This document shows positions 5,363 through 11,970 of a DNA stretch of 34,975 nucleotides, piece by piece. Below the pieces are notes generated by a model, which was not told where the DNA came from, did no database searches, and saw only the letters and a program-made list of their open reading frames with translations. Source of the DNA: Nitrospirota bacterium (GTDB lineage Bacteria; Nitrospirota; Nitrospiria; Nitrospirales; Nitrospiraceae); contig JACZQN010000009.1 of assembly GCA_022545705.1 (NCBI GenBank), positions 1 to 34,975 of the forward strand, read 5' to 3'. Position numbers and translations under genes: made by a program. Positions within the stretch are counted from its first letter, which is position 1, and every line of letters starts with the position of its first letter.

Positions 5363-5494
5363 GAATTTCAAGGACATCTGCCGAAGCAGTCGAGCTTCCC
5401 AAGGATGCGCCTCACGGGGCCAGCTTCGTGTGAAATTGACCGTTCTCAGACCCGGTGCTACTTTTTAGATGTCACCCCGTCACCTGCTCCGAGC

Positions 5495-6304
5495 ATGCAC
5501 AAGTCAGATCCAGCCAAAGCCAGAAGGATCACCCACCCCCAGGGGTTGTTTGATGAACCTGAAACGGGCCTCAAGTTGGCCCCATCAAGCCCGCAAACAG
5601 TCGAGCAGGAAGCTCCCGATGAAATCGCGGAGGCCGATGCCCCCACTCCACGACGAAGGCGTTGGATCGCGTTCGCCGGACCCGCGCTGGCCGTGCTCTT
5701 CGCGACAGGAGTGTTTGTCTGGCCATCCTTCAAATCCCACGTCTTTTCTCCGATCACCCTGCAACTGGCTGTGGTGCGAGTCACAGACAGCGGCCAGAGA
5801 ATCACGCTCCTGAATGAAGGCGATCTCGTCTCCAGGCAGGAAAGACTAGGGATCTTCGTCAACCCTGATGACACGCTGTTCCTGTACGTCTGGCACACCG
5901 ATTCAACCGGCAAGGTCATTCCGATTTTCCCGAATCACGATACCGCGGCACCGAAGAACCCTCTTGAGCCAAAACGCGCGCTTTGGCTCCTCTCTCCCAA
6001 GGGCCAAAGAGGCCTGGTTCGCTTGCCCAACACCCCCGGGCTCAAGAAGGTGACGGTTGTCGCCACGCCCAACCCACTGCACAGGCTCCATGATGGGTGG
6101 CGCCTGTTGTCCTGGATCGGCCTGGAGGGCTTACGCGATGAGGAAGACACCTTGAGCGATCCTCGCCAGTCATCGGCAAAGCTCAAGAGGGGACGAGACA
6201 CAGGGACGTTCATCCCGCCCGATCCAGGGACTTCCCCGCCCATTCGCTACCTCGAAGGCGACCCGAATGGGTTTTACTACGAGATCGAGTTCAAGCGCCT
6301 CTAG
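5495..6304 (+). CDS. Membrane-anchored protein with DUF4384-like domain
   Basis: Starting at ATG 5495 this gives 269 aa; an in-frame upstream codon at 5405 is possible but adds a low-quality extension. The N-terminal part is polar and Pro/Glu-rich, then RRRR precedes a single membrane helix (about 57-76). The C-terminal part is extracytoplasmic by the positive-inside rule. It contains LAVVRVTDSGQRITLLNEGD, FVNPDDTLFLYVWHTD, SGKVIPIFPN and KKVTVVATPNPL, resembling DUF4384, a beta-rich domain that often follows kinase or peptidase modules in envelope proteins. A final YLEGDPNGFYYEIEFKR ends the chain. No enzymatic motif is seen. It precedes the rplU promoter but is not obviously part of that operon. 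Function is unknown. Confidence 0.7.
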   Translation: MHKSDPAKARRITHPQGLFDEPETGLKLAPSSPQTVEQEAPDEIAEADAPTPRRRRWIAFAGPALAVLFATGVFVWPSFKSHVFSPITLQLAVVRVTDSGQRITLLNEGDLVSRQERLGIFVNPDDTLFLYVWHTDSTGKVIPIFPNHDTAAPKNPLEPKRALWLLSPKGQRGLVRLPNTPGLKKVTVVATPNPLHRLHDGWRLLSWIGLEGLRDEEDTLSDPRQSSAKLKRGRDTGTFIPPDPGTSPPIRYLEGDPNGFYYEIEFKRL

Positions 6305-7057: not shown

Positions 7058-7224
7058 GGCCGACCGCCGTCCTCACACGCCTGACCCATCGACACTTGTC
7101 ACCTCGCTATCCGCTGTCCGCAGCCCTGGAATCCTCACCAGCGGAACCGCCACTTCGCGATTCCTTTTCTACTGCGAAGCCATTTTGAACACTCTGGGAT
7201 TTTAGGGGAGCGTGAGGGTTTGTG

Positions 7225-8247
7225 ATGTTTGTGGATGAGGTCCGGATCTTCGTCAAAGCCGGCCGGGGAGGCGACGGGGTGTGCAGCTTTCGACGAGAGA
7301 AGTACGTCCCCCGTGGAGGCCCGGACGGCGGGGACGGGGGGAACGGGGGGAACGTGATCGTGCTCGCTACGCGCCGTTACAGCACGCTTCTGGACCTCCG
7401 CTACCAGCAGCATTACGAGGCACAACCGGGGAAATCGGGCGGAGGCTCGAATCGGCGTGGGCGCACCGGAAAGGACGTCATGATCCATGTCCCCGTCGGC
7501 ACGTTGGTTGCCGATGATGCGACGGGAGAAATCGTGGCAGATCTTATCGCTGATGGGCAGTCGCACGTTGCCGCCCGTGGCGGACGAGGCGGACGGGGCA
7601 ACGCACGGTTCGCCACTTCGACCAACCGGGCCCCGACTCAGGCCAAGCCCGGGACGCCGAGCGAGAAACGGTGGCTGCGACTTGAGCTGAAATTGCTGGC
7701 CGATGTCGGGCTGGTCGGTCTTCCCAATGCCGGCAAGTCCACCCTCATCTCGGCCATCTCCTCAGCGCACCCCAAGATCGCCGACTATCCTTTCACAACC
7801 CTCACTCCCAAGCTGGGGGTCGTGTCCTGGTCTGATGCCCGTAGCTTCGTGGTGGCCGATATTCCCGGGCTGATCGAAGGAGCCCACGAGGGGAAAGGGC
7901 TTGGCATGCAGTTTCTCCGACACATCGAGCGGACTACATTTCTTCTCCATCTTGTCGATATCTCGGAGTGGTCGTCAGGTGATCCCGTGGTCAGCTTCGA
8001 AGTCATGCGAAAGGAACTCATGGCCTATGGCCCTTCCCTGGAATCCCGACCTTTTGCCGTGGTCGGGACCAAGCTGGATATCAAGGGTGACGCACAGCGA
8101 CTTGGGCGCTTGCGGGTGTATTGCAAGCGACACCGCCTGCGACTCTTCCCCATCTCCGCTGTCACACGCAAAGGGCTCGACGCCCTCGTCCATTTCGTCG
8201 GTGAACAGGTCGACTCCCTGAGGGCGCCGTGCGCGACAGCCTCCTAA
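7225..8247 (+). CDS. obgE: Obg-family GTPase, ribosome assembly factor
   Basis: The 340-aa protein begins MFVDEVRIFVKAGRGGDG, the glycine-rich Obg fold (about 1-158), followed by the G domain with P-loop GLPNAGKST (165-173), DYPFTT switch I, DIPGLIEGAHEGKGLG (G3), GTKLDIKG (G4) and SAVTRKG (G5). It lacks the extra C-terminal OCT domain of some species. ATG 7225 is preferred over GTG 7222 because GAGGG at 7214-7218 is six bases away. Obg proteins act in 50S maturation and stress/growth control, which fits the neighbouring ribosomal genes. The last 19 bases overlap proB, so translation of the two may be coupled. Confidence 0.97.
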   Translation: MFVDEVRIFVKAGRGGDGVCSFRREKYVPRGGPDGGDGGNGGNVIVLATRRYSTLLDLRYQQHYEAQPGKSGGGSNRRGRTGKDVMIHVPVGTLVADDATGEIVADLIADGQSHVAARGGRGGRGNARFATSTNRAPTQAKPGTPSEKRWLRLELKLLADVGLVGLPNAGKSTLISAISSAHPKIADYPFTTLTPKLGVVSWSDARSFVVADIPGLIEGAHEGKGLGMQFLRHIERTTFLLHLVDISEWSSGDPVVSFEVMRKELMAYGPSLESRPFAVVGTKLDIKGDAQRLGRLRVYCKRHRLRLFPISAVTRKGLDALVHFVGEQVDSLRAPCATAS

Positions 8248-9473: not shown

Positions 9474-10166
9474 ATGCGTATCGGCTTGTTTGGTGGCACC
9501 TTCAATCCCATCCATAATTGCCACCTGGTCATCGCCGCGCAGACTCGGGATCGTCTGGGCCTCGATCGTATCGTCTTCATCCCCTCCGGAGATCCCCCAC
9601 ACAAGGCATCGGACACCCTGGCTCCGGCTCGTCATCGAATCGAGATGGTGCGGCGTGGGATTGCCGATGATCCATCTTTTTCGGTCTCTGACGTCGAAGT
9701 CCGCCGCGCGACCAAGTCATACTCGTTCGAAACGGTGCAAACCTTCCGCACGGAGTATGGCGCCGAGGCAGAGCTGTTTTTTATTGTTGGACTCGATGCC
9801 TTTCTCGAGTTCCCAACCTGGAAGCAGGCGTCGGAATTACTCCACTCGTGCCATTTCGTCGTGGTTTCACGCGAGGGCCATTCGTTTGCCTCGCTGGCCG
9901 GCTTCCCGCTGCTTCCGACGATTGCCCCCAACTCGTTGGGGGCCCTGGATTCCCGTGATCGAGACCGGCTTGACATTCCGCTGCGCGGAGGCAGGATGAT
10001 CATCTTTCTCGGGCTTCCTCCCTGCCCGGCCTCCGCATCAGAGATCCGAAGTCGGTTCAAGTCTGGCCTCGGCGCGGCAGCTTTGTTGCCGGCCCCAGTC
10101 GAATCTTATATAATGCAGCTTGGGCTGTATCAGGAGGGTCCCGATCGTACCAGCGTCAAAGGCTAG
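9474..10166 (+). CDS. nadD: Nicotinate-nucleotide adenylyltransferase
   Basis: This 230-aa enzyme adenylates nicotinate mononucleotide in NAD synthesis. It opens MRIGLFGGTFNPIHNCHL, the nucleotidyltransferase GGTFxPxHxxH motif, with Cys where Gly is usual. IVFIPSGDPPHK binds substrate, RHRIEMVRRGI and SYSFETVQTFR follow, IVGLDAFLEFPTWK is the family GxDxxxxxxxW region, and PASASEIRSRFKSG is the C-terminal adenylation (ISST-like) motif. The ribosome-binding region lies inside the 9400-9473 inverted repeat and has no strong Shine-Dalgarno, so translation may be structure-sensitive. Its 3' end overlaps the start of rsfS. Confidence 0.95.
   Translation: MRIGLFGGTFNPIHNCHLVIAAQTRDRLGLDRIVFIPSGDPPHKASDTLAPARHRIEMVRRGIADDPSFSVSDVEVRRATKSYSFETVQTFRTEYGAEAELFFIVGLDAFLEFPTWKQASELLHSCHFVVVSREGHSFASLAGFPLLPTIAPNSLGALDSRDRDRLDIPLRGGRMIIFLGLPPCPASASEIRSRFKSGLGAAALLPAPVESYIMQLGLYQEGPDRTSVKG
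10086..10114 (+). promoter_or_regulatory. Possible internal promoter for rsfS
   Basis: TTGCCG (10086-10091) and a perfect TATAAT (10109-10114) are 17 bases apart inside the end of nadD. A start near 10121 would place AGGAGG at 10132-10137 in a short leader. Confidence 0.4.
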
Positions 10167-10566
10167 AGCGCTCGCTATTGCCACGGCGTCCCTTGAGAAG
10201 AAGGCCGATGACGTCGTGGTGCTTTCTGTCGCCAAGCTGACCTCCGTTACAGATTACCTCGTCGTGTGTTCCGCAGAAACTGATCGTCAGGTCCGTGCCA
10301 TCGCGGCCCACGTCGACAGCACCCTTTCCGTCAAGCGCGTCTTTCCCCTCAGCACCGAAGGCGCATCGACAGGGCAATGGATCCTGATCGACTACGGCGA
10401 CGTCGTGGCCCATATTTTCCGCACCGACACCCGCCAGCATTACGCGCTTGAAAAACTCTGGAGCGACGCGCGGCGGGTCCGAGTCCCCGCCGACATGTCC
10501 TCTGCCCCGCTTGCTTCGCTACGCCCCGTGCGCAAACGGTCGACGCGCGCTCGTCAACACGGATAG
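10120..10566 (+). CDS. rsfS: Ribosomal silencing factor RsfS
   Basis: The protein (148 aa from TTG 10120) is a RsfS/DUF143 family member. The family blocks subunit joining by binding L14 on the 50S. ADDVVVLSVAKLTSVTDYLVVCSA, DRQVRAIAAHVD, TGQWILIDYGDVVAHIF and YALEKLWSDA are the conserved segments. A basic Arg-rich tail of about 25 residues is extra. The start is unclear: TTG 10120 has no ribosome site, whereas a perfect AGGAGG (10132-10137) lies six bases before an ATC codon at 10144, in frame. The order nadD-rsfS is widely conserved. It is followed after three bases by the LapAB-like gene. Confidence 0.93.
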   Translation: MGCIRRVPIVPASKARALAIATASLEKKADDVVVLSVAKLTSVTDYLVVCSAETDRQVRAIAAHVDSTLSVKRVFPLSTEGASTGQWILIDYGDVVAHIFRTDTRQHYALEKLWSDARRVRVPADMSSAPLASLRPVRKRSTRARQHG

Positions 10567-10569
10567 CGA

Positions 10570-11970
10570 ATGGTTCACCTATTGCTGACAGTCTTCGTGA
10601 TCATCGTCGTCAGCGTGCTCTACGGCTACTTTCATGAGCTGAACCCCGGATCGATCACCCTACGGCTCAGTCCGACCGCCGGGGTTGACCTCAGTCCCGC
10701 TTCCCTCGTCCTGATTTCGATGGCGGCCGGCGCGCTGCTCGTCACGCTGTTGGTTGGTATTCGCGAGGCCAAATTCTTCATCTTGAACTGGCGGAGCCTT
10801 CGTCTGCGCCGGCGGGAGGAGAAGGTGGAGGCGCTGTATCGTGAGGGGACCCACACCTATCTGTCAAAACGGATTCCCGAAGCGATCGCGCTGTTCCAGA
10901 AAGCGCTGGCGCTCGATCCCCACCACACTGATTCCTTGCTGTGGCTCGGCAACATCCACCGCGCGGAAAACAACTTCACGGAAGCGATCCGCTTACACCG
11001 CAAAGCGCGCAGTATTGCCGAGCACAACATTGAAGTCCTTCTGGCCCTCGCCAAAGACCTGGAAGGGGCCAAACGGTTTGAGGAGGCGCTGCAGACGTTG
11101 CAGGACATTCTCAAACTGGATCCAGCGAACCTGACCGCGTTGACGGGGAAGCGAGACCTGTACACGAGGTTGGAAAAATGGAGCGACGCGCTTGAAGTCC
11201 AGCACCGTCTCTTGAAGGCGAACCTCTCGGAGCCCGATCAGCGGACTGAAAACAGCACGTTGGTCGGGCTCACCTATGAAGTCGGGCGGCAAATGCTGGA
11301 ACGGGGACACTCGGACAAGGCCCGCCACTATTTCCGCGGCGCGATGAAACGGAACAAGCAGTTCTTGCCGGCCTATATCGGCCTCGGCGAGCTCCTCGTC
11401 AGGGAGGGGAAGACAAAGAATGCGGTGGGCATCCTCGAAAAGGTGTACGCGAAGACCCGTAATATCATCATCCTTCACCGCCTCGAGGAGTTGTATCTGG
11501 AGATGGGTGAACCAGGCGAGATTCTTCGCGTGTACCAGGAAGCGATCCGGCAGGATCCGCTCAACCCTGTGCTGAAATTCTATCTTGGAAAGCTGTACTA
11601 CCGGCTTGAGATGGTTGACGAAGCGTTTGACCTGCTTTCCAACCTGGAGGGAACCCAGGAGCACACGACCGACTTTCACAAAATCATGGCCAACCTGTAC
11701 CTCCGCAAGCAACAGATGGACCTCGCCGTGGAGGAGCTGAAAAAGGCGCTCGGGTATAAGAAGCGCGTGGTCGTGCCCTATGGCTGCACGCACTGCCAAC
11801 AGGAGTCAAGGGAGTGGGCGGGCCGCTGCCCCCAATGCGGCCTCTGGAACACCTACGTGGCCCTCCCCTGGGTCGATGGATCCAGCTCGCCACCTCCCCA
11901 GAACGATGGCGAGCTGGAGGCCCGTTCGATCCCCTACCACGGGCTCGCCTCGCCGTTTGAGACTGTGTGA
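10570..11970 (+). CDS. LapA-LapB fusion-like TPR protein with rubredoxin-type zinc ribbon
   Basis: This 466-aa inner-membrane protein has two N-terminal helices (about 3-22 and 43-66) flanking a short periplasmic loop with NPGSITLRLSP, like LapA (DUF1049). A basic linker, WRSLRLRRREEKVE, leads into about eight TPR units (residues 85-395, for example EAIALFQKALALDPHHTDSL). The C-terminus has a rubredoxin-like ribbon, Cys406, Cys409, Cys420 and Cys423 in GCTHCQQESREWAGRCPQCG, the hallmark of LapB/YciM. In E. coli LapA and LapB are separate neighbours controlling LpxC turnover and LPS assembly. The chain therefore looks like both in one. After the zinc ribbon is a 35-residue Pro/Ser-rich tail. 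The gene directly follows rsfS. The LPS role is inferred. Confidence 0.82.
   Translation: MVHLLLTVFVIIVVSVLYGYFHELNPGSITLRLSPTAGVDLSPASLVLISMAAGALLVTLLVGIREAKFFILNWRSLRLRRREEKVEALYREGTHTYLSKRIPEAIALFQKALALDPHHTDSLLWLGNIHRAENNFTEAIRLHRKARSIAEHNIEVLLALAKDLEGAKRFEEALQTLQDILKLDPANLTALTGKRDLYTRLEKWSDALEVQHRLLKANLSEPDQRTENSTLVGLTYEVGRQMLERGHSDKARHYFRGAMKRNKQFLPAYIGLGELLVREGKTKNAVGILEKVYAKTRNIIILHRLEELYLEMGEPGEILRVYQEAIRQDPLNPVLKFYLGKLYYRLEMVDEAFDLLSNLEGTQEHTTDFHKIMANLYLRKQQMDLAVEELKKALGYKKRVVVPYGCTHCQQESREWAGRCPQCGLWNTYVALPWVDGSSSPPPQNDGELEARSIPYHGLASPFETV

Follow-up and report, generated by a model that had tools for sequence, protein, structure and literature searches.

The 466-residue protein encoded by an open reading frame at positions 10570..11970 of the window (plus strand, ATG start, stop codon included), the window being the whole analysed stretch of 34,975 nucleotides, joins a LapA-type membrane hairpin to a LapB-type tetratricopeptide repeat (TPR) body with a zinc ribbon. 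In Escherichia coli, LapA and LapB are separate chains with a part in controlling the production of outer-membrane lipid. The parts themselves are known; what appears to be new is their arrangement, which is kept across a phylum. Judged from its sequence, the fused protein is most likely an inner-membrane LpxC adaptor, and the presence of both parts in one chain suggests that they work together. A LapA-LapB fusion was not named in the titles and abstract openings of the open-licence literature, as far as the search listings reached.

Organisation of the fused protein

Hydropathy analysis placed the hydrophobic regions in windows 1–24 and 39–67, with an overlapping window at 54–72, and revealed no such region beyond residue 120. 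In the AlphaFold2 model (mean pLDDT 86.0, pTM 0.71), helix 2–24 is followed by a two-strand loop, a continuous helix (43–98), the TPR helix pairs and the ribbon. So, the two N-terminal helices with a LapA-like loop that run into TPRs and a ribbon, as described in the sequence-only reading, were recovered by the reading frame, hydropathy and the model in agreement.

All features lie on the plus strand. The first membrane helix (residues 2–24, 10573..10641) was located by hydropathy and by the model, and the LapA_dom match found by profile search (residues 25–87, 10642..10830) covers the loop with Asn25, a predicted two-strand hairpin (29–32 and 38–41) and the second helix with Gly54. The single unbroken helix predicted by the model (residues 43–98, 10696..10863) joins the second membrane helix to the first helix of the TPR array. 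The nine helix pairs predicted for this array (residues ~84–393, 10819..11748), counted by hand on the helices of the model and supported by Pfam TPR matches and by the alignment with LapB, precede the LapB/rubredoxin-type zinc ribbon (residues 404–428, 11779..11853; Cys406, Cys409, Cys420 and Cys423), which was defined by profiles and alignment. The ribbon is followed by a variable linker (residues 435–452, 11872..11925; pLDDT below 50 from residue 436) and a conserved C-terminal tail (residues 453–466, 11926..11967) ending in SPFETV.

The LapA-type hairpin

The LapA_dom profile (PF06305) gave 18.9 to 23.2 bits on the window's protein, depending on the stretch submitted, and always remained below its cut-off of 28. 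At the level of the family, 34 of the 37 orthologous N-termini matched LapA_dom at E ≤ 0.01, against 3/37 each for HemY_N and DPM3, with no HemY_N match in the window's protein itself. The comparison of residues 1–80 with LapA therefore succeeded for the family, but not for the score of this single member. Asn25 and Gly54 are invariant in 37/37 fusion N-termini, and the equivalent Asn24 and Gly52 are invariant in 19 stand-alone LapA proteins. Moreover, the hydrophobic windows of Escherichia coli LapA (1–25 and 40–67) have the same spacing as those of the fusion. LapA/YciS thus resembles the fusion in helix spacing, in the invariant Asn before the loop and in the Gly of the second helix, and differs from it in that the TPR body stands in the fusion where LapA has its cytoplasmic end.

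Alignment of the fusion N-terminus with stand-alone LapA by hhalign gave a probability of 96.5% (E 9e-10), whereas controls with one side reversed gave 3.8% and 4.2%. A permuted LapA profile still reached 85%; it is not a clean control, because one helix still aligns. The profile of the fusion N-terminus placed all 19 LapA sequences given to it above every reversed decoy (best decoy, 2.1 bits), the lowest being the LapA of the window's own genome (10.1 bits); E. coli LapA scored 21.7 bits, residues 1–60 of LapB 1.8 bits and residues 1–90 of HemY −0.2 bits. In the reciprocal test with the LapA profile, 36/37 fusion N-termini exceeded the best reversed decoy (4.0 bits), the window's protein doing so weakly (8.6 bits) and locus L120 falling below the decoy (3.8 bits). 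The other test of membership, a genetic or physical partnership with LapB, is provided by the shared chain. At the same time, LapA_dom matched 6/14 control genomes, five of them over the cut-off, with Bacillus subtilis and Corynebacterium glutamicum among the six, and the hairpin alone is therefore no marker of lipopolysaccharide (LPS).

The LapB-type body and zinc ribbon

The LapB model NF008757 matched residues 80–431 with 104.3 bits. This bore out the proposed likeness of residues 80–430 to LapB, but the equivalog cut-off of 363 bits is far away, and the claim made here is therefore of a LapB-type protein and not of an equivalog. Searched with the family profile, LapB chains are matched continuously, at most over its positions 73–428. 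The Zn_ribbon_LapB profile gave 24.4 bits on the window's protein against a cut-off of 25.7, and 29.7 bits, above the cut-off, in the genome search. The ribbon with Cys406/409/420/423 is exactly as had been claimed: these residues are invariant in 24/24 aligned orthologues, and the four-Cys motif is present in 38/38 close sequences, including that of the window.

In the structural comparison, the four best rows were all LapB: 7t6d (Z 22.7 over 369 residues, rmsd 10.8), 9up5 (Z 22.0, rmsd 4.3), 4zlh (Z 21.7, rmsd 4.4) and 8v24 (Z 21.4, rmsd 4.0), the last being the structure of a LapB-LpxC complex. The first row other than LapB was O-GlcNAc transferase (Z 19.8); the gap in this comparison of the predicted model is modest, as would be expected for TPR proteins. 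Generic TPR models equalled or surpassed those of LapB (TIGR02917, 4.3e-39, vs 2.1e-33 for the best LapB model over 37 members), and in the search of PDB by sequence, designed and other TPR proteins ranked above LapB. The case for LapB is therefore made by the order of the parts, including the ribbon, since sequence alone favours generic or designed TPR proteins.

Like LapB/YciM of E. coli (7t6d, 4zlh, 8v24), the fusion has nine TPRs, probably on the cytoplasmic side, followed by a C-terminal rubredoxin-type CxxC-CxxC ribbon, and its residues 49–437 align along the whole body with residues 1–388 of LapB in the superposition on 7t6d. Unlike LapB, it has a LapA-type loop, a tail past the ribbon and two membrane helices in place of the single N-terminal one, and it is therefore a variant of LapB.

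How the two parts are joined

One helix of the fusion aligns with both the second helix of LapA and the only helix of LapB. The fusion is therefore not two whole proteins placed end to end, because one helix serves as both and there are two helices, not three. The idea of LapA and LapB in one chain holds in that a hairpin and a LapB-type body are joined across Nitrospirota, but must be amended in that the two proteins are not both present whole. As to the further claim that a natural fusion supports a direct LapA-LapB interaction, the support is circumstantial, and co-purification of the two proteins in E. coli has already been published (PMC7730581, PMC12444477).

The C-terminal tail

The Pro/Ser tail had been described as extra, and it does lie past the ribbon, but it is not just Pro/Ser: a conserved end follows a variable linker. 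Among 24 sequences, the mean top-residue frequency is 0.41 in linker 435–452 and 0.90 in tail 453–466, compared with 0.85 in the TPRs. The SPFETV terminus occurs in 37/38 close sequences, the remaining one being cut by its contig end, and was found in none of the 30 distant copies; the one member read from the sister family f3 ends in SPFEIV, and the one read from family f8 has no such motif. Judging by this pattern of conservation, SPFETV appears to be a terminal motif that is specific to this lineage and kept by selection.

Orthologues and spread in Nitrospirota

The genome scan yielded 38 loci, 37 of which are full relatives with 62–76% identity; the 38th, a weak TPR match, was dropped. The records of the 37 bear the titles Nitrospira, Nitrospirae, Nitrospirota or Nitrospiraceae, with one exception titled Nitrosospira. 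Two of the orthologues are short, L016 through a late start and L047 through the end of its contig. The full profile matched 345/395 Nitrospirota genomes (E ≤ 1e-25). From 39 chosen genomes, 30 distant loci, one per genome, were read, with start codons picked by hand among in-frame candidates, and every one of the 30 copies begins with two helices and carries the four-Cys ribbon. The listing of the 345 matches ended at about E 1e-132, and the statement on N-terminal coverage refers to these 30 copies. The proposed survey across Nitrospirota thus found the fusion to be widespread in the phylum.

A looser search of genomes from family f2, which belongs to the window's order, gave only a short TPR match in G081 and none in G179, G191 and G137. 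These four genomes carry lpxC and LapA_dom matches without a fusion match, and a natural loss of the fusion is possible there, as far as these searches indicate.

Gene neighbourhood

The genes obg, proB, nadD, rsfS and the fusion follow one another in this order and in one direction, with obg at 7222–8247 of the window. ObgE has been reported to inhibit LpxA (PMC12444477). Directly upstream of the fusion lies rsfS (10120..10566, plus strand; PF02410, 103 bits), preceded by a frequent neighbour, the nadD-type nucleotidyltransferase gene (9474..10166, plus strand; PF01467). The rsfS gene is upstream of or near the fusion in 35/37 close loci, the contig ending just upstream in both loci without it, and in 29/30 distant loci; the nadD-type gene is upstream in 27/30 distant loci, within the stretch covered. 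Three bases separate the rsfS stop codon, which GGA immediately precedes, from the ATG of the fusion, an arrangement that suggests translational coupling of the two genes. A promoter and terminator scan gave nothing above chance. Elsewhere in the window, a reading frame of 299 residues (5405–6304), for which Pfam gave nothing at E ≤ 1e-5, is perhaps not a gene.

Partner genes in the genome and phylum

The sequence-only reading had counted separate lapA and lapB genes in the same genome as evidence against it. One half of this was found: the genome has a separate stand-alone LapA_dom gene (48.7 bits), but a second LapB was not detected by profile search in this genome, the completeness of which is given as 94.6%. 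The next-best LapB candidate (57 bits, profile positions 27–273 only, in a 307-residue frame) has no ribbon match, and the other two ribbon matches in the genome were rejected as radA-like reading frames, one of them cut by a contig end. Loci L003 and L004, two almost identical beginnings of radA, lie on separate contigs of one genome, one of them at a contig end, and this pair is possibly a strain variant or an assembly duplicate.

The window's genome also encodes one LpxC and one FtsH-type protease, and a search of it for YejM (PF11893) gave no match. Over the phylum, LapA_dom exceeded its cut-off in 279/395 genomes, and the best matches listed lie in frames of 63–339 residues, shorter than the fusion. 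The presence of LpxC does not track that of the fusion (329/345 genomes with the fusion and 44/50 without it; tables compared by eye). The C-terminus of LpxC was considered as a degron mark that might follow the fusion. With a non-polar end defined as at most one of D, E, K, R, H, N and Q in the last eight residues, and with L148 (no reading frame) and L150 (same genome as L149) left out, such ends were counted by hand in 27/46 fusion-bearing and 12/20 fusion-lacking genomes; there is no difference between the two groups.

Discussion

In E. coli, LapB is the adaptor that presents LpxC to FtsH, and exchange of its membrane helix lowers FtsH binding (PMC9356133); the same helix is held by YejM (PMC9356133, PMC13333357). 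The lapA gene shares a transcript with lapB, and the two proteins co-purify (PMC7730581, PMC12444477). Suppressor mutations in lapA act by blocking LapB synthesis (PMC7730581), and the genetics of LapA is therefore ambiguous; a 2025 review calls the influence of LapA on LapB unclear (PMC12444477).

The interpretation that we favour, with somewhat better than even confidence, is that the fused protein is the Nitrospirota form of LapB, in which a LapA-type hairpin replaces the single helix and the body holds LpxC and restrains LPS synthesis. Both ends of the protein would be cytoplasmic, the short loop of the hairpin would lie on the outer side of the inner membrane, and the second helix would pass as a rigid rod into the TPR coil. 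LpxC would be bound at the membrane by the TPR/ribbon body and either passed to FtsH or held back in its activity, which would keep LPS synthesis in check. Neither the co-occurrence of LpxC with the fusion nor the LpxC tails lent support to this role; YejM, the known partner of the LapB helix, gave no match in the window's genome, and a separate LapA-type gene is present there. The hairpin would play the part that LapA takes beside LapB in E. coli, as an aid to membrane docking or sensing, and SPFETV may be a binding peptide for a cytoplasmic partner of this lineage. A stronger version of this scheme makes the hairpin the built-in sensor of LapB, with the loop reading the state of LPS or lipid on the outer face of the inner membrane, the continuous helix relaying it to the LpxC-holding TPR body, and LapA of E. 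coli being the detached form. It leans on the possible absence of YejM from the phylum, a protein that was searched for, without a match, in the window's genome, and we consider this version improbable.

The other two-helix family that could account for the N-terminus is HemY, which shares with the fusion an N-terminal membrane part followed by TPRs. The protein would then be HemY-like, acting in a haem or other envelope pathway, and its likeness to LapA would be that of any hydrophobic hairpin to another. TIGR00540 (HemY) indeed aligns with residues 4–383 (75 bits), matches 35/37 members (best E 1.4e-30) and is the best NCBIfam match for residues 1–80 alone (15.4 bits), and HemY_N does match three N-termini. 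However, its cut-off of 142 is missed and NF008757 scores higher on the same protein; HemY_N falls far short of LapA_dom among the orthologues, the profile of the fusion N-terminus scores HemY below zero, and E. coli HemY has no match to the zinc ribbon, the four Cys of which are present in all 37 orthologues. HemY was rejected as the best fit, and we regard a HemY-like function as highly improbable. That the TPR/ribbon body serves some other client, e.g., in ribosome silencing or cell division rather than in LPS control, is brought to mind by the linkage to rsfS across the phylum and by the missing co-occurrence signal with LpxC. The neighbours obg, proB, nadD, rsfS and bioB belong, however, to unrelated pathways, and LapB is the best structural match of the whole body, which makes such a client distinctly unlikely.

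More weight, though still doubtful, is given to a comparison with Ght, the LapB homologue of Neisseria, as a review describes it (PMC12444477). Like the fusion, Ght is of LapB type with doubtful FtsH control of LpxC. In this alternative, the protein would fasten LpxC to the inner membrane and stimulate LPS synthesis without FtsH proteolysis, the hairpin being no more than a firmer anchor. LapB homologues are described as occurring also alongside LpxC that lacks a C-terminal degron, and Ght has been reported to localise LpxC to the membrane (PMC12444477); in keeping with this, YejM gave no match in the window's genome and no LpxC tail pattern is linked to the fusion. Against it, an FtsH-type protease is present, and many LpxC tails of Nitrospirota are non-polar, which is compatible with a degron and no proof of one.

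For the LapB family, the single chain suggests that the second helix of LapA can take over from the helix through which E. coli LapB binds FtsH and YejM. A natural single chain also sets the ratio of the LapA and LapB parts at one to one and fixes their positions relative to each other, and the fusion, kept across most of the phylum, is a ready construct for structural work.
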